From Bacteroidales bacterium (GTDB lineage Bacteria > Bacteroidota > Bacteroidia > Bacteroidales > WCHB1-69): DNA of 12,340 nt. Location: positions 1 through 12,340 of the forward strand of contig JAFXPL010000014.1 in NCBI GenBank assembly GCA_017527945.1, read 5' to 3'. Positions 5,996-12,048 of this stretch are shown here, piece by piece; positions within the stretch are counted from its first letter, which is position 1, and each line of letters starts with the position of its first letter. The position numbers were made by a program, and so were the translations under genes. The notes under the pieces were generated by a model. That model was not told the origin of the DNA. It was given only the letters and a program-made list of their open reading frames with translations, and did no database searches.

Positions 5996-6038
5996 TCTTT
6001 TCCGACAATTATCCATTTATTATATGATTCCCCACTTG

Positions 6039-6071
6039 GTAGAGACGCAAATTAGCGTCTCTACTTTTTTT
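6039..6071 (+). terminator. Intrinsic terminator of glnA
   Basis: GTAGAGACGC (6039-6048) and GCGTCTCTAC (6055-6064) form a perfect 10-bp stem around the loop AAATTA, followed directly by seven T (6065-6071). It starts 44 nt after the glnA stop codon. The upstream side has no A-run, so it should act mainly on the plus strand. Confidence 0.9.
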
Positions 6072-6206: not shown

Positions 6207-8402
6207 ATGAAAGAGAGACATATACTTCTTTTCACTTTACTGGTAGCAGGTTTTTTGGTTGCCAAAGCCCAAAACAACGTGACCGTGCAATCGCTGCAGA
6301 ACACCCATGTCGATACCATTCTGAAATACCACCTCGCGGGCGAAGGCGTGGAACTCACCAACGGGCGGTTCAACAACAACGCCGGCATCGTCACCTCCAA
6401 CCAAATCGGGTCGTTCAACCGGAACAACTACACGCAGTTTCCGTTTGCAACGGGATTGATCATGACCACGGGTGCCTGCTCGGTGGCGGCAGGCCCAAAC
6501 AGTTCAGGGAGCGCCTCCAGCCTCGCCAACGTCAGCTACACCGACGCCCTGCTGCAACAATATAACCAGGGCTACACCGTGCAGAACAGTGCGGCATTGG
6601 ATTTCGACTTCTTAGCCTACGCCGACACGTTCGCCTTCAACTACGTATTCGGCTCGGAGGAGTATCCCGAATATGTCTGCGCCAACTACAACGACATCTT
6701 CATCTTCCTGCTTACCGGCCCCGATCCGGTGACCGGCGTGACCACTACCAAGAATGTGGCCGTGATTCCAGGCACAGTGACGGCGGCTAACCCCAACGGA
6801 GTGCCCGTCTCCATCAACACCGTGAACAACGGCGCCACCAGCAGCAGCGGTGTTTCATGCGAAAACGGAACCTATTCCGCCTACTATATCGCCAGCAATG
6901 CCGGCAGCAACGGCGTGGAATACAACGGCCGCACCGTGCAGCTCACCGCCGAGGGCAACATCCTCGCCTGTGAAAACTACCACATGCACTTGGCCATCGG
7001 CAACGCGGGCGACAACTCCTACGACTCCGGTGTCTTCCTCGAAGGCAAGAGCTTCCAGAGCGAAGTGACCACCAAATTGCTCATGCGCAATACCTACTGC
7101 CTCCACGAACCCATTGTCTTCGAATACCAAGCCGGAAACGTGGACACTGTCTATGTGATTACCCCGCACGGCGACACCCTCCGAAACGAACCCTTCACCA
7201 TCCCGAGTGCCAACGCCAGCGACAGCGGATTGTACTACCTCTATGTCCATAAAGCCCTGAACTGTGTGGATTTGTGGGCATACGACAGCATCTTCATCCA
7301 TGTCAAGAATGTCTTCAAACCCGACCTTGGCGAAGACCAGTGGCACTGCACCGGCGAACTGGTGACCCTGAACTCCGGCTACGAGAACAGCGAAGCCACC
7401 CTATCTTGGAACACCGGCGAAGATTCCGAATCCATTGAGGTCATCACATCGGGAGAATACATCTTAGAGGTCGAAATCTTCAATCCGGAATCCCAGTCCC
7501 GCTGCTATAGCTCCGACACGGTGGTCATCAACTTCTGGCCGCTGCCGAAAGCCGATTTCGAGGCGGACGTGCTCTCCGGCTGCACTCCCGTCACCTCCCG
7601 CTTCGCCAATCTCACCAGCACCACTTCCGACTCTATCCGATGCGAATGGTTCATCTTTGACGAAAACCTCGCCCTCATTGACTACAGCCCGGACCTCGCC
7701 CCTGTCTTCCATTTCAACGATGCCGGCACCTATTCCGTGAAACTCCTCGTCACCACGGCGGAAGGATGCCAAGACTCCATCACCAAATGGAACTACATCA
7801 TCACCTCCCCGCAACCGCAAGTCGATTTCCAGGCTTCCCCGGAAATCAGCATGATGAGCGAGACCAACGGACAGATAGAATTTTCCGCTTACCTCTCCGA
7901 CAATATCATCGGCAATCCCAACGCACACCTTGTCTGGACGTTCGGCGATGGCGAAACAGTGGAAAATGAGCCTTCCACCAGCCACATATATAGTTCCTGG
8001 GGCGACTATGTGGTCACGCTGGCCGTCACCACGGAAGGCGGCTGCGGCGACTCGGTGAGCCACACCATCGTCATTGAGGACGACCTGCGCTTCCCGAACG
8101 TCATCACCCCGAACGGCGACGGTGTCAACGATGTGTGGGCCATCGAGAACCTCAACACCGACATCAACTTCGAAGATCCGGACGGTTTCCGCCAAAACGA
8201 GCTGCGCATCAGCGACCGCTACGGCAAGGTGGTGTTCCAAACCAAAAACTACGACACCTGGTCGAAAGACGGGCAAATCTACCCGGGACTCAATCCGTTC
8301 TCCGGCGAAAACCTCAACGACGGCGTCTATTACTACACCTTCAAATACAAAGGAAAGGCCAAGACGACCACGTGGAACGGATCCATCACGATTGTACGGT
8401 AA
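6207..8402 (+). CDS. T9SS cargo: choice-of-anchor L, Ig/PKD, gliding-motility-type C-terminal domain
   Basis: This 731-residue exported protein begins with a signal peptide (1-22: basic start, LLFTLLVAGFLVA core, cleavage likely after KAQ). Residues ~30-285 form a choice-of-anchor L domain with its hallmark YVFGSEEYPEYV (146-157) and a following NDIFIFLLTGP (162-172). Residues ~290-368 look Ig-like. A second Ig/SprB-like module with DLGED, C381, TLSWNTG (398-404) and SGEYILEV (415-422) follows. Two PKD-like domains lie at ~447-535 and ~537-623 (WTFGDGE 577-583; Y-V-V-T-L-x-V 601-607). The C-terminus, FPNVITPNGDGVNDVW (629-644) to the final WNGSITIVR, is the CHU_C / gliding-motility-associated type-B T9SS sorting domain. 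The protein is therefore expected at the cell surface or secreted through the T9SS (known for the family). Ligand and role are unknown; adhesion is plausible. It is monocistronic, and its stop codon lies one base before the heptad array. Confidence 0.93.
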   Translation: MKERHILLFTLLVAGFLVAKAQNNVTVQSLQNTHVDTILKYHLAGEGVELTNGRFNNNAGIVTSNQIGSFNRNNYTQFPFATGLIMTTGACSVAAGPNSSGSASSLANVSYTDALLQQYNQGYTVQNSAALDFDFLAYADTFAFNYVFGSEEYPEYVCANYNDIFIFLLTGPDPVTGVTTTKNVAVIPGTVTAANPNGVPVSINTVNNGATSSSGVSCENGTYSAYYIASNAGSNGVEYNGRTVQLTAEGNILACENYHMHLAIGNAGDNSYDSGVFLEGKSFQSEVTTKLLMRNTYCLHEPIVFEYQAGNVDTVYVITPHGDTLRNEPFTIPSANASDSGLYYLYVHKALNCVDLWAYDSIFIHVKNVFKPDLGEDQWHCTGELVTLNSGYENSEATLSWNTGEDSESIEVITSGEYILEVEIFNPESQSRCYSSDTVVINFWPLPKADFEADVLSGCTPVTSRFANLTSTTSDSIRCEWFIFDENLALIDYSPDLAPVFHFNDAGTYSVKLLVTTAEGCQDSITKWNYIITSPQPQVDFQASPEISMMSETNGQIEFSAYLSDNIIGNPNAHLVWTFGDGETVENEPSTSHIYSSWGDYVVTLAVTTEGGCGDSVSHTIVIEDDLRFPNVITPNGDGVNDVWAIENLNTDINFEDPDGFRQNELRISDRYGKVVFQTKNYDTWSKDGQIYPGLNPFSGENLNDGVYYYTFKYKGKAKTTTWNGSITIVR

Positions 8403-8403
8403 C

Positions 8404-8648
8404 GGCTGTTGGCTGTTGGCTGTTGGCTGTTGGCTGTTGGCTGTTGGCTGTTAGCTGTTAGCTGTTAGCTGTTGGCTATTGGCTATTGGCTGTTAGCTGT
8501 TAGCTGTTGGCTGTTGGCTGTTGGCTAAAGGCTAAAAGCTAAAAGCTAAAAGCTAAAAGCTAAAGGCTAAAAGCTAAAGGCTAAAAGCTAAAGGCCAAAA
8601 GCTAAAGGCCAAAAGCTAAAAGCTAAAAGCTAAAGGCTAAAGGCTAAA
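8404..8648. repeat. Perfect 35-unit heptanucleotide array with two complementary blocks
   Basis: The 245 bp divide exactly into 35 heptads with no indel. Units 1-17 (8404-8522) all fit RGCTRTT: mainly GGCTGTT, with AGCTGTT and two GGCTATT. Units 18-35 (8523-8648) all fit RGCYAAA: AGCTAAA, GGCTAAA, and GGCCAAA twice. Every within-block difference is a transition. Read as RNA, block 1 (GUURGCU) pairs antiparallel with block 2 (RGCYAAA) at six of seven positions using Watson-Crick and G-U pairs, leaving a purine-A mismatch per heptad. The array fills the gap between the convergent T9SS cargo gene and the metal exporter, overlapping the exporter's last five codons and stop. It may act as a bidirectional terminator or barrier (inference). 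Confidence 0.95.
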
Positions 8649-9514
8649 CCACCGATCAGAAGGCCTAACGCCATCGTCAAGCCTTTCATGACAAGGAAGT
8701 TGCGTTTCGACTGCGCCATGAGCGGAATGCCGGCGTGGCCGTTCTGCGCGATGGAATTGGCGACCAGCACGGCGAAGGGGATGCTGCCTTGCAGGTAAAG
8801 CATCACGAAAATCAAGTGCGGGCCCGACACCGGCAGGAAACCCACTGCCACCGCGATGAGCAGCATCAACCACTTGGTCCACGCATGAGACCCCATCATC
8901 GTTTGCAAATCGACGAAATGGTTAAGGATTCCCAACACCAAAAGAGTTCCGAACGCATAGAGGAAGAGCTTGAACGCGTGTTGTTTGACGACGTGCTCCC
9001 ACACGTGCTCGCGCAAAAAATGCAGCATTCGCTCCCGCCAGGGCCGCTTTTCCGTCGCATGGGCATGGGGCAAATGGTCCTCGTGAATGGGAAAGTCGTG
9101 ATTTTCAAATGTAACGAATTTGTTTTCAGGTATTTTCTGCAAGATCAAGCCTACCACAAAGCCGATGGCGAAGAGGATGCCTGTCAGCAGCAGTGCGTTT
9201 TTCGGACTCTCGGCGGCGAGGAAAAGCGCCTCGTCGCCAAACGTGGCGACCATGCCGCCGATCAGTGCCCCGAAAGAGAGCATCCGGTGGGTGAAGAGCG
9301 ACACCACCACGAAACCGCCCGCACACCCGGGAATCGCCCCGAGCAAACACGCCAGCGCGACCTCCGCCACGGGCTTTCCGTGCAGCTTGCGGAACAGCCG
9401 CCCCGAAGATGAGATGTTGACCGACTCCACCACCGCCATCAGCAAAAGCACCAACAGCGTGATGGAAACCGATTCCTTTAACGCCTCCCAAATAATATTG
9501 AATACGATTTGCAT
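8630..9514 (-). CDS. Putative ten-helix metal exporter (ArsP_2 / DUF2899, 'putative manganese transporter')
   Basis: The 294-residue polytopic membrane protein has the pattern of the ArsP_2 (DUF2899) family, annotated as putative heavy-metal or manganese exporters; the substrate is not proven. The first half contains a helix at about 16-30, GAIPGCAGGFVVVSLF (59-74) and GALIGGMVATFGDEALFLAAES (82-103, with acidic D94 and E95 inside the membrane region). A cytoplasmic-type loop follows, rich in histidine (H139, H144, H147, H150, H152), a plausible metal-binding segment. The second half repeats the layout: GFLPVSGPHLIFVMLY (225-240) and AVLVANSIAQNGHAGIPLMA (248-267), suggesting internal duplication. 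It starts 25 nt after the stop of the hydrogenase-like gene, so it is probably the last gene of that operon. Its final residues LAFSL and the TAG stop are encoded by the heptad array, yet total length looks normal. Confidence 0.82.
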   Translation of the reverse strand: MQIVFNIIWEALKESVSITLLVLLLMAVVESVNISSSGRLFRKLHGKPVAEVALACLLGAIPGCAGGFVVVSLFTHRMLSFGALIGGMVATFGDEALFLAAESPKNALLLTGILFAIGFVVGLILQKIPENKFVTFENHDFPIHEDHLPHAHATEKRPWRERMLHFLREHVWEHVVKQHAFKLFLYAFGTLLVLGILNHFVDLQTMMGSHAWTKWLMLLIAVAVGFLPVSGPHLIFVMLYLQGSIPFAVLVANSIAQNGHAGIPLMAQSKRNFLVMKGLTMALGLLIGGLAFSL

Positions 9515-9539: not shown

Positions 9540-10916
9540 TTACAAATTCAGATTCTTCGCCAGCGTCGGGTCTGTCTTTTTCGCGCCCCACACCTTGGCG
9601 GAGATGTCGTGCGCCTCCTTGGGTGTCAACAGGTCGTAATGCTCCATGGCGCGCTGCACGAAAATACACTGCTGGATCTGCGCCTTGTCGGTGACCACCG
9701 CGTCGGCAAGCGCCTTGCAGGAGGGATAGCCGCAGAGGTGGCAATCGACCTGAGGCAGGTTCTGGTTGATTTCGAACGCCCGCTTCATCTTCTGCATCGC
9801 CGCTGCCACGTTGTCGTCCATCTTGTCCATCGAGCGCGGCTCCACCGCACTGACATGGCGTTTGTCGGCCAGATAGTTGAAGTAGTTGAGCAGGTCGTTG
9901 TCCTCCGCATCCACCTCATCCGAGCATTTCGACATCCGCTTGCGCTGCCGCTCAATCATCAGAAAACGGTTCTCCGCCGTGAGGATGCCGCCGCAACAGC
10001 TGCCGTCACATGCTCTAAGTTCAAGAAAATCAATATCTTGAATATCCTCATCTTCCACCTTTTCCAAAAATTCCGACACGTTGTGGATGTCATCGATGGC
10101 CAAGTTGCGGCCCGTACGCAGCATCTTGGTCTCACCGCCGGTGAGCGGATAGGTGATGCTGGCCTTCGAGAGGCGGTGGAAACGGGTTGACTCGTCACAC
10201 ATCTTGTACTCTCCCGTCTTTATTACCCTTAACACCTTGCTGTACAAGTAGTTCATGTTAATTACGCCGTTCACAGGCGACTTGTCCTCCCCCACAGGGC
10301 TCTTGATGGCGGCAATCTTCGCGGCGCAAGGAGTCACATAGAAAATGCCGATGTCCTCCTCTGGGATGCCTTTCTCCGTCAGACTCTTCTTGATGTATTC
10401 GGCCGTGATGTCGAACGGAGCCTTCACAAGGTAGATGTTATCGACCAAAACGGGGAATTTCACCTGTATGAGGCGCACGATGGCAGGACAGAACGAAGAG
10501 ATGACCGGTTTCTCGTACGGCACGTTCCCGCTTTCGAGGTCGCGGCGGATGTACTCCTTGATGAAGTCCACGCTCTTCTCCACCTCATACACATACTTGA
10601 AGCCGATGTGCAGCAGGGCGGAGAGGATGGTGCGCTCGCGGATTTTCTCCTCGAACTGCGCCAAAAAGATAGACGGCACCAGCAGGACCGGGTACTTGTA
10701 GTCATACACCGTCTGGAAGTCATCCTGTTCGATATAGATGGCGTTCATCGGGCAGGCCACGTAGCAGCGGCCGCAATCGACGCAGCGGTTCGGGTCGAGC
10801 ACCGGATGCCCGTCCTCAACATGGATGGCACTAGTGGGGCACACGCCCGTGCAGTGGGAGCAACCGATGCAGAGGTCATATTTGAATTGTAATGCGTGGT
10901 GGAAATCTTCAGCCAT
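9540..10916 (-). CDS. Sensory [FeFe]-hydrogenase-like iron-sulfur protein (HydS/HsfB type)
   Basis: The 458-residue protein opens with two [4Fe-4S] ferredoxin motifs: C16-C19-C22-C26 and C45-C48-C51-C55. Next comes a hydrogenase large-subunit (H-cluster) domain: motif L1 SSFCPA (C143), L2 TPCAAK (C197, K200), and L3 RACDGSCCGG (C303, C307). Near the C-terminus lies an Fe-S domain of the PF04060 type, with C392, C395, C400 in DCHLCGYPSC and C417. All four H-cluster cysteine ligands are kept. The catalytic proton-relay cysteine that normally precedes the L1 ligand is Phe142, and the L2 glutamate and L3 methionine are also replaced. This matches sensory rather than turnover hydrogenases. No PAS domain follows, unlike many group C sensors. 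It lies downstream of a DRTGG protein and an RsbW-like ATPase, the usual partners. It probably senses H2 or redox state and passes the signal to the ATPase (inference). Confidence 0.88.
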   Translation of the reverse strand: MAEDFHHALQFKYDLCIGCSHCTGVCPTSAIHVEDGHPVLDPNRCVDCGRCYVACPMNAIYIEQDDFQTVYDYKYPVLLVPSIFLAQFEEKIRERTILSALLHIGFKYVYEVEKSVDFIKEYIRRDLESGNVPYEKPVISSFCPAIVRLIQVKFPVLVDNIYLVKAPFDITAEYIKKSLTEKGIPEEDIGIFYVTPCAAKIAAIKSPVGEDKSPVNGVINMNYLYSKVLRVIKTGEYKMCDESTRFHRLSKASITYPLTGGETKMLRTGRNLAIDDIHNVSEFLEKVEDEDIQDIDFLELRACDGSCCGGILTAENRFLMIERQRKRMSKCSDEVDAEDNDLLNYFNYLADKRHVSAVEPRSMDKMDDNVAAAMQKMKRAFEINQNLPQVDCHLCGYPSCKALADAVVTDKAQIQQCIFVQRAMEHYDLLTPKEAHDISAKVWGAKKTDPTLAKNLNL

Positions 10917-10929
10917 GGGTTTGGTGAAA

Positions 10930-11006
10930 GTTTAGAGGTTTAAGCAGTTTAGGAGGTTAGGGAGTTTAGGAGGTTTAGGGGGTTTAGGAGGTTTAGGAGG
11001 TTAGAG
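10930..11006. repeat. Degenerate ~9-bp tandem array (TTTAGGAGG) inside the operon
   Basis: About nine copies of TTTAGGAGG or close variants run from 10930 to 11006. Spacing between successive TTTA/TTA cores is 8, 9, 9, 8, 9, 9, 9 and 9 bp. The array occupies nearly all of the gap between the ATPase stop codon (11012-11014) and the hydrogenase-like ATG (10916). On the coding (minus) strand it reads CCTCCTAAA repeatedly, with four exact CCTCC copies. No hairpin or terminator T-run is evident. Confidence 0.85.
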
Positions 11007-11011
11007 TGTTT

Positions 11012-11425
11012 CTATTGGAAATAGTTCACAAATTCGATGGTGGTGCCTTTGCCCACCTCGGAGGTGATATTGAGGGAGTCGGAGTTGTTTTTGATGTTGG
11101 GAAGGCCCATACCGGCGCCGAAGCCCATCTCGCGCACTTTCTGGGAAGCGGTGGAATAGCCCTTCTGCATGGCCTTGTCGATGTCGGGGATACCAGGGCC
11201 CTCGTCGGCGAGGACGATCTTGACGTGGTCTTCCTCCAAATCCACGGTGATGTCGCCGCGATAGGCATGCGCCACGATGTTGACTTCCGCCTCATAGAGC
11301 GCCACCACGGTTTTCTTTACGATCTCGGGACTCACCCCGATCTTTTTGAGCATCCTTTTCACCTGGCTGGAGGTGGACCCCGCATTGGTGAAATCGCCGC
11401 CTTCTACATGATAAACAAAATTCAT
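11012..11425 (-). CDS. RsbW-like anti-sigma / serine kinase ATPase of the HydS module
   Basis: This is a small cytoplasmic GHKL (HATPase_c) protein. Using the ATG at 11425 it has 137 residues and begins MNFVYHVEGGDF, the N-terminus usual for this hydrogenase-linked subfamily. An upstream in-frame ATG at 11446 would add seven residues and is less likely. Visible ATP-binding boxes are the N box EAEVNIVAHAYRG (about residues 46-58), the G1 box DEGPGIP (about 74-80) and the G2 box GFGAGMGLPNIKN (about 101-113). Family members act as serine kinases or anti-sigma switches controlled by a partner phosphatase. Here it lies between the DRTGG gene and the hydrogenase-like sensor, so it probably relays the sensor's state. 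No SpoIIE-type phosphatase or anti-anti-sigma factor is present in the window. It is separated from the upstream DRTGG gene by 26 nt. Confidence 0.87.
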   Translation of the reverse strand: MNFVYHVEGGDFTNAGSTSSQVKRMLKKIGVSPEIVKKTVVALYEAEVNIVAHAYRGDITVDLEEDHVKIVLADEGPGIPDIDKAMQKGYSTASQKVREMGFGAGMGLPNIKNNSDSLNITSEVGKGTTIEFVNYFQ

Positions 11426-11898: not shown

Positions 11899-11906
11899 TA
11901 CTTTTG
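11899..11906 (+). promoter_or_regulatory. Bacteroidota -7 promoter box for the DUF7935-like gene
   Basis: TACTTTTG fits TAnnTTTG and is followed by C. Transcription would start a few bases later, almost exactly where the heptad array begins. TTTG at 11884-11887 is too close to be a normal -33 element, so promoter strength is uncertain. It faces away from the -7 box at 11844-11851. Confidence 0.5.
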
Positions 11907-11912
11907 CCGCGC

Positions 11913-12045
11913 GTTTTAAGGGTTAAAGGTTAAGGGTTAAGGTTTAAGGGTTATGGGTTAAGGGTTATGGGTTATGGGGCACAAGTCATAAGTCATAAAT
12001 CACAAGTCATAAGTCACAAGTCATAAGTCAAAAATCAAAAAACAA
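11913..12045. repeat. 19-unit heptad array forming the leader of the DUF7935-like gene
   Basis: The stretch parses without phase change into 19 heptads. Units 1-9 (11913-11975) are variants of GGGTTAA/GGGTTAT. Unit 10 is the transition GGGGCAC. Units 11-17 (11983-12031) are AAGTCAT variants, decaying to AAATCAA and AAAACAA. It begins about six bases after the -7 box and ends three bases before the ATG, so it is essentially the entire 5' leader. In RNA, GGGUUAU and AUAAGUC can pair at six of seven positions including one G-U, but several GGGTTAA units fit less well. Confidence 0.85.
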
Positions 12046-12048
12046 TAT

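Follow-up and report, generated by a model that had tools for sequence, protein, structure and literature searches.

The array at positions 8404–8648 of the window (the whole 12,340-nt stretch of Bacteroidales DNA analysed) is confirmed as an observation. It consists of 35 heptads in a single phase without an indel, 17 of RGCTRTT followed by 18 of RGCYAAA, as the preliminary description had read it, and the gene calls of the window agree with that description in making the flanking genes convergent (Table 1). These calls, like those in all the array analyses below, are plain, uncurated ORF calls. Lag-7 identity over the array is 215/238; mononucleotide shuffling of the whole window, repeated 200 times, yields at most 92/238 in any stretch of equal length. 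Tandem Repeats Finder returns both blocks. Since the gap between the two genes is only 8403–8629, the array fills all of it except the first base and extends into the ArsP_2 gene: the last 19 bases of block Y are the 3' end of that reading frame and contain its final codons and stop. Changes in the heptads are expected to alter the ArsP_2 C-terminus, because seven is not a multiple of three. The heptad array supplies the last codons and stop of ArsP_2 both in the window (8630–8648) and in a relative, G009 (L166, about 9249–9280).

Read on the minus strand, block Y is RGCYTTT and belongs to the same word family as block X, RGCYNTT, with N being G or A on the left and T on the right. The two blocks are inverted partners at 6/7 positions and form two arrays on opposite strands, both pointing into one gap. 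Within the 35 units there are at most two adjacent G residues, and no quadruplex-capable tracts of three or more.

Table 1. Positions of the repeat arrays of the window and of the genes flanking the 8404–8648 array
Feature	Position	Strand	Remark
Left flanking gene (PKD/T9SS), with PKD and CHU_C (type IX secretion signal) domains	6207..8402	+	
Left block X, 17 heptads RGCTRTT	8404..8522	+	begins one base past the PKD/T9SS gene stop codon
Right block Y, 18 heptads RGCYAAA	8523..8648	+	in phase with X
Right flanking gene, ArsP_2 putative heavy-metal exporter (permease)	8630..9514	-	
Single-block G/T-rich array, mixed period	10929..11004	+	between hydrogenase-like and HATPase genes
Second two-block array, left block, TTAAGGG/GGGTTAT (GGGTTAA/GGGTTAT) words	11916..11978	+	gap between divergent genes
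Second two-block array, right block, AAGTCAT words	11983..12041	+	partial complementarity to left block

Predicted folding and pairing of the two blocks

The preliminary description held that one block can fold onto the other as a long, wobble-rich stem with a hexamer of pairs plus one mismatch in each heptad, and that the plus-strand transcript pairs better. Modelled folds of 8395–8660 agree on both points: the pairing within each heptad is as claimed, and the predicted stem has an energy of -132.6 kcal/mol on the plus strand (dinucleotide-shuffle z -9.6) and -82.7 kcal/mol on the minus strand (z -6.1). When the heptads themselves were shuffled, the result was divided. The plus strand of 8404–8648 folds at -129.6 kcal/mol in its intact order, and permuting heptads within blocks gives a mean of -130.0 kcal/mol, with 150 of 200 permutations folding at least as well, whereas mixing all 35 heptads gives -119.1 kcal/mol, with none of 200 mixtures as good as the intact array. 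The array therefore beats dinucleotide shuffles and full mixing, but not within-block permutation. Because mixed heptads keep 92% of the energy, most of it stems from the words themselves, whose RGCY core is nearly self-complementary; the two-block layout contributes about 10 kcal/mol. Where the units of a tandem repeat are near-palindromic, dinucleotide shuffles thus overstate the evidence for folding, and permutation of whole units is the better control. A scan of the window with Rfam 15 gave no match at the gathering score, and a known RNA family was dropped as its identity.

The choice of bases at the variable positions had been taken to resemble compensatory constraint. This was not borne out in 123 loci in which a block of type X is followed by one of type Y (X-Y loci; the stretches found by the pattern scan described below, the window and G009, with duplicates removed), heptads being paired from the junction towards the ends of the arms. 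At the variable X1:Y4 pair of the 43 loop-free loci, A-C combinations stand at random level in four registers (37, 34, 24 and 23 versus 34.8, 32.7, 26.3 and 22.7 expected). Together with the immateriality of heptad order to folding, these counts lead us to reject compensatory pairing of specific heptads for loop-free loci. The window is uninformative on its own, with 0 or 1 A-C of 16, because the expectation is just 0.6.

In loci with a loop of at least 3, A-C is depleted in the innermost register (44 versus 54.7 expected, permutation 0.0045) and stands at 41 versus 44.6 one unit outward (0.17). Since G-T is likewise under expectation there (38 versus 48.7), the depletion fits inverted copying at the DNA level or shared copy ancestry. 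Pooled over all 123 loci, which are not all independent, the A-C count is 81 versus 89.4 expected (0.044). Selection for wobble pairs on the sense strand was rejected as well: where co-directional genes run in the X-Y direction, the innermost register has 27 G-T and 46 A-C, the reverse of what such selection predicts. Convergent X-Y loci have 17 G-T and 8 A-C in that register.

Heptad arrays in other genomes

In-phase two-block arrays like that of the window, for which the preliminary description had proposed a search of related genomes, do recur. The pattern scan found at least 120 stretches, and 101 of the 120 among the matches listed are from Bacteroidota. A stricter X-Y pattern was found in 8 of 99 genomes drawn from the family of one of these, G004, so that it is not universal there. 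The window array is one of a class of intergenic period-7 arrays that are common in the sampled Bacteroidales relatives. In 412.5 kb of G004 there are 76 arrays of period 7, 66 mostly intergenic, compared with 10 of period 6, 13 of period 8, 13 of period 12 and none of periods 4 and 5; period 14, the double of 7, has 59. Period 7 also leads in the samples of G008, G013, G035, G007 and G005, and its lead is least clear in G011 (33 versus 10 for period 9). The vocabulary is small: 116 words in 451 blocks, versus about 300 when letters are shuffled within words (six blocks of masked N, counted as one word in the raw tally of 117 words in 457 blocks, are excluded). All genomes sampled for arrays, including those of the 30-genome word scans, entered the analysis through their X-Y pattern; X-Y counts are consequently inflated, and tests on unrelated words are less affected. 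Some arrays in the samples of G007 and G008 use TTTAGGG/CCCTAAA words, which we take to be the plant-type telomere repeat. In a distant genome, G001, an apex RGCAAGAAAGCCAAAAGC occurs in 29 dispersed copies (L291–L319); the copies printed are heptad-armed hairpins with common sequence past the stem, resembling a REP/MITE family.

The polarity of the arrays is set by the gap. Gaps of 40–600 bp were taken from every sample except G011. Their left-half blocks tend towards G/T on the plus strand and their right-half blocks towards A/C, between convergent, divergent and both kinds of co-directional gene pairs. More than half of the bases are G or T in 126 of 181 left-half blocks versus 46 of 150 right-half blocks (Spearman -0.45, n=331). 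GC skew is +0.30 to +0.56 in left blocks and -0.11 to -0.44 in right blocks, and array-free gaps show -0.04 to +0.02. The strand running inward from either gene thus tends to be G/T-rich, regardless of gene direction. Because of this rule the GTT block comes first: in 30 genomes, themselves reached through the CTGTT-first order, a CTGTT block followed by an AAAAG block occurs at 20 loci in 12 genomes, and the swapped order at one locus in one.

Facing blocks also tend to mirror each other with a single mismatch. Among 86 adjacent block pairs, 16 are inverted partners at exactly 6/7 positions, against a null mean of 3.8 and a maximum of 11 over 2000 draws, and one at 7/7 (null 2.8). By our reading, 11 of the 16 have words outside the RGCYNTT family; one of these 11 is an orthologous duplicate. 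In 12 of the 16 the mismatch is purine-purine or pyrimidine-pyrimidine. Perfect CTGTT/AACAG arms occur in none of the 30 genomes, but CTTTT/AAAAG arms without a mismatch are present in 6 of them, at 10 loci, so that a strict ban on perfect inverted arms is unsupported and single-mismatch mirroring is a tendency only. This comparison of words was used instead of a duplex test between left-half and right-half blocks, because the latter gave only a modest excess over 56 clusters (mean -0.484 versus -0.421, sd of means 0.031; 24 clusters below -0.5 versus 14.6 expected, the highest in 40 draws being 20). Arm lengths of the X-Y loci correlate weakly (rho 0.20, p 0.03, n=123).

Orthologous gaps in relatives

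The protein encoded at 9540–10916 has a counterpart of 91–96% identity in 8 of the 46 genomes reached via the pattern scan. All eight are from Bacteroidales or Bacteroidetes. Goat omasum and yak rumen are the sources named for two of them; five have RUG names and are presumably rumen assemblies. Both genes flanking the array are present in two of the nine orthologous regions compared, G009 and G031. At this one site the copy number of the heptads differs: 17+18 in the window, 9+14 with the same boundaries in G009, and no array between the two genes in G031. In the relatives, the gaps next to this site mostly have different heptad words or lack them. Three relatives with no array at the ArsP_2 end (L163–L165) have sequences there that, read by eye, resemble ordinary terminators.

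Words can be replaced altogether. In 27 of 75 orthologous array pairs from four relatives, no shared word matches at more than 5/7 positions. Both members form a mirrored stem in four such pairs, against 0.66 under the null (5000 draws; P 0.0002, the pairs not being independent); one member does so in four pairs and neither in 19. The four both-mirrored pairs come from two gaps. At one word-replaced gap the arms are of the GCTTTTA/GCCAATA type in G005 and G004 and of the GTTTAAG/CCCCTAA type in G008, and the left flank is identical. A third gap (G004:C12, about 323861, with counterparts in G008 and G005) holds three words, all with a stable stem (z of -4.6, -6.7 and -5.8); it failed the thresholds of the 75-pair test. 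A mirrored stem therefore persists while the words differ between species at two orthologous gaps, perhaps three. That this layout of facing blocks, with the G/T-rich strand inward and often a single mismatch in each heptad, can survive a change of sequence offers a sharp test of what is kept, whether a DNA-level process that writes repeats or a crude stem of RNA.

Placement relative to genes

The preliminary description had suggested that the stem might terminate the transcripts of both convergent genes. Placement was determined for 105 of 121 X-Y loci, three inside reading frames and 13 at edges being left out. Fifty-five lie between co-directional genes running in the X-Y direction, 27 between co-directional genes running in the opposite direction, 18 between convergent and 5 between divergent genes; background gaps in the same loci number 302 co-directional, 60 convergent and 85 divergent. 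X-Y arrays are rare between divergent genes (p 4e-6), and enrichment between convergent genes is not significant (p 0.25). The co-directional loci lie nearer a stop than a start codon in 59 of 82 cases (p 9e-5; 41 versus 16 with one count per genome, p 0.001), and the edge of an arm falls -12 to +5 nt from the stop codon in 52 of them. The sense orientation is favoured, 55 versus 27 (p 0.003; per genome 39 versus 17, p 0.005). Stop proximity, sense preference and avoidance of divergent gaps suggest some selection at transcript ends.

An intrinsic terminator, with a G+C-rich stem and a T run directly after it, was rejected, since a simple scan of the array and gap found no terminator-like site on either strand. 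The sequence 3' of the array reads CCACCGATCAG and places no U-tract after the stem. At 6038–6065, after a glutamine synthetase gene, there is an ordinary terminator-like stem with a T run, from which the genome appears to use standard terminators elsewhere.

Discussion

The anatomy of the array, its recurrence, its polarity, the copy-number difference between relatives and the absence of heptad-level compensation in loop-free loci are established. The earlier interpretation as a whole is partly supported by these results: the stem, the recurrence and the placement at stop codons stand, and compensation, the U-tract terminator and the novelty of the mirrored form do not. In our judgement the locus is probably best explained as a pair of facing, polar heptad arrays grown by slippage, with the hairpin being at most a generic intergenic RNA structure. 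Each arm runs inward from its flanking gene with its G/T-rich strand, both words belonging to one family. Slipped-strand mispairing has probably altered the copy number of each arm separately, as the difference between orthologous sites suggests. The long RNA stem would then be a by-product of the facing layout and the near-palindromic RGCY core, with at most a generic role at transcript ends or between genes. Selection may act on the layout at the level of blocks; individual heptads give no clear sign of it. What counts against growth by slippage is that, in its simple form, it does not predict that the mirrored form is kept across a change of words, as in 4 of the 27 word-replaced pairs. The placement of the X-Y arrays relative to genes counts against it too.

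This persistence counts in favour of a selected RNA hairpin, whose stem would block 3'-5' exonucleases or assist termination for one gene or both and in which only block-level complementarity would be kept while words turn over. Mirrored stems with other words at orthologous gaps would be expected of such a hairpin, as would X-Y arrays that abut stop codons, are mostly in sense orientation and seldom lie between divergent genes, and the simple scan found no other terminator-like site in the gap of the window. Even so, we regard a selected hairpin as rather unlikely. Loop-free loci lack heptad-level compensation, wobble pairs are not preferred on the sense strand, no U-tract follows the stem and convergent enrichment is not significant. 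In addition, some X-Y arrays sit a few bases before the next start codon, a position at which termination would switch off the gene that follows, and the array-free relatives have ordinary-terminator-like sequences at the end of ArsP_2. The retained architecture, the placement at stops and the sense preference nonetheless leave room for a function of the RNA at the level of blocks.

A mobile hairpin of the REP/MITE type, whose arms happen to contain heptads, could account for dispersed copies such as those of RGCAAGAAAGCCAAAAGC in G001, which are alike beyond the stem. In the close relatives of the window, however, loops and words vary by locus, and the window array lacks a loop element of its own, which makes a mobile element improbable here. 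We attach a still smaller probability to a DNA-level process that would write heptad arrays outward from both gene borders and might replace the word of a gap by another without loss of the mirrored form. The G/T-rich strand would usually be the outgoing 3' strand, as it is in telomere repeats. For DRT10, a preprint describes a telomerase-like reverse transcriptase that makes tandem repeats, there with a 9-nt motif (PMC12632851). The polarity in all four gene orientations, the near absence of the swapped block order, the small vocabulary and the replacement of both arms are compatible with such a process. Finally, metagenome assembly is prone to errors at tandem and inverted repeats, but an assembly or chance artefact is hardly credible given that the same class appears in many separate assemblies, including some of cultured strains (L010, L057, L066, L084), that G009 shows the same site with the same boundaries, and that lag-7 identity is far above shuffles, even if the exact number of units in the window could still be wrong.

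With its head-to-tail 7-nt units, a copy number that varies between relatives and, in the relative G004, many mostly intergenic loci of its kind, the array belongs to the bacterial intergenic heptanucleotide tandem repeats. The STRR arrays of filamentous cyanobacteria, with a unit of about 7 nt, are short tandem repeats like those of the window, from a different phylum. In a general survey of long simple sequence repeats, heptanucleotides were the most abundant class in most genomes and polymerase slippage was proposed (Mrazek 2007, as cited in PMC4692102 and PMC4679880). A close parallel is the GGGNATC heptad repeats of Xanthomonas and Nostoc, which are mostly intergenic, occur at many loci and vary in copy number (Rehm et al. 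2015, PMC4692102). Their G-rich strand adjoins the 5' neighbouring ORF whatever its direction. Facing pairs of GGGAATC arrays, 70 in Xcc and 75 in Xac, could form stem-loops or cruciforms, and the single or facing-pair type is usually preserved between the two (PMC4692102). As far as that report describes them, the Xanthomonas arrays share with ours the 7-nt intergenic unit, the facing pairs and the placement rule for the G-rich strand. They differ in that the report concerns one quadruplex-forming type of word, whereas a sampled Bacteroidales genome holds many words, the window array lacks a three-G tract, arms often match at 6/7, and words are replaced between close relatives at some gaps.

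The TAACTGA heptamer repeats of Beggiatoaceae, cyanobacteria and Bacteroidetes, described as mostly intergenic, form arrays of as many as 43 copies in several Bacteroidetes and cyanobacteria, with other heptamers mixed in, and in some cases are absent at the same site in a close relative (MacGregor 2015, PMC4679880). They resemble our arrays in being 7-nt direct repeats, mostly intergenic, whose presence differs between close relatives. Unlike the facing arrays of the window type, the system presented there is one of a single word, which in the main genome mostly sits immediately upstream of start codons; the repeat itself was not predicted to adopt any particular secondary structure, and the report gives one indirect repeat in the main genome (PMC4679880). 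The mirrored two-block form had been thought undescribed in Bacteroidota. Our literature search found no report of facing heptad arrays in Bacteroidota, but those published for Xanthomonas (PMC4692102) mean that facing pairs are not new in kind; what is new here is their occurrence in Bacteroidota, the frequent single mismatch and the replacement of words.

Among the short tandem repeats of the sampled relatives, heptad arrays are the dominant kind. Close species often differ in the word or the length of an array, so that these repeats are a fast-evolving layer of gene borders. The window itself holds a further two-block heptad array and a single-block array of mixed period (Table 1). The fold of the second two-block array (11905–12048) has a z of -4.1 on the plus strand and -0.5 on the minus strand, and the single-block array (10900–11020) has a folding z of -1.95 on the minus strand.
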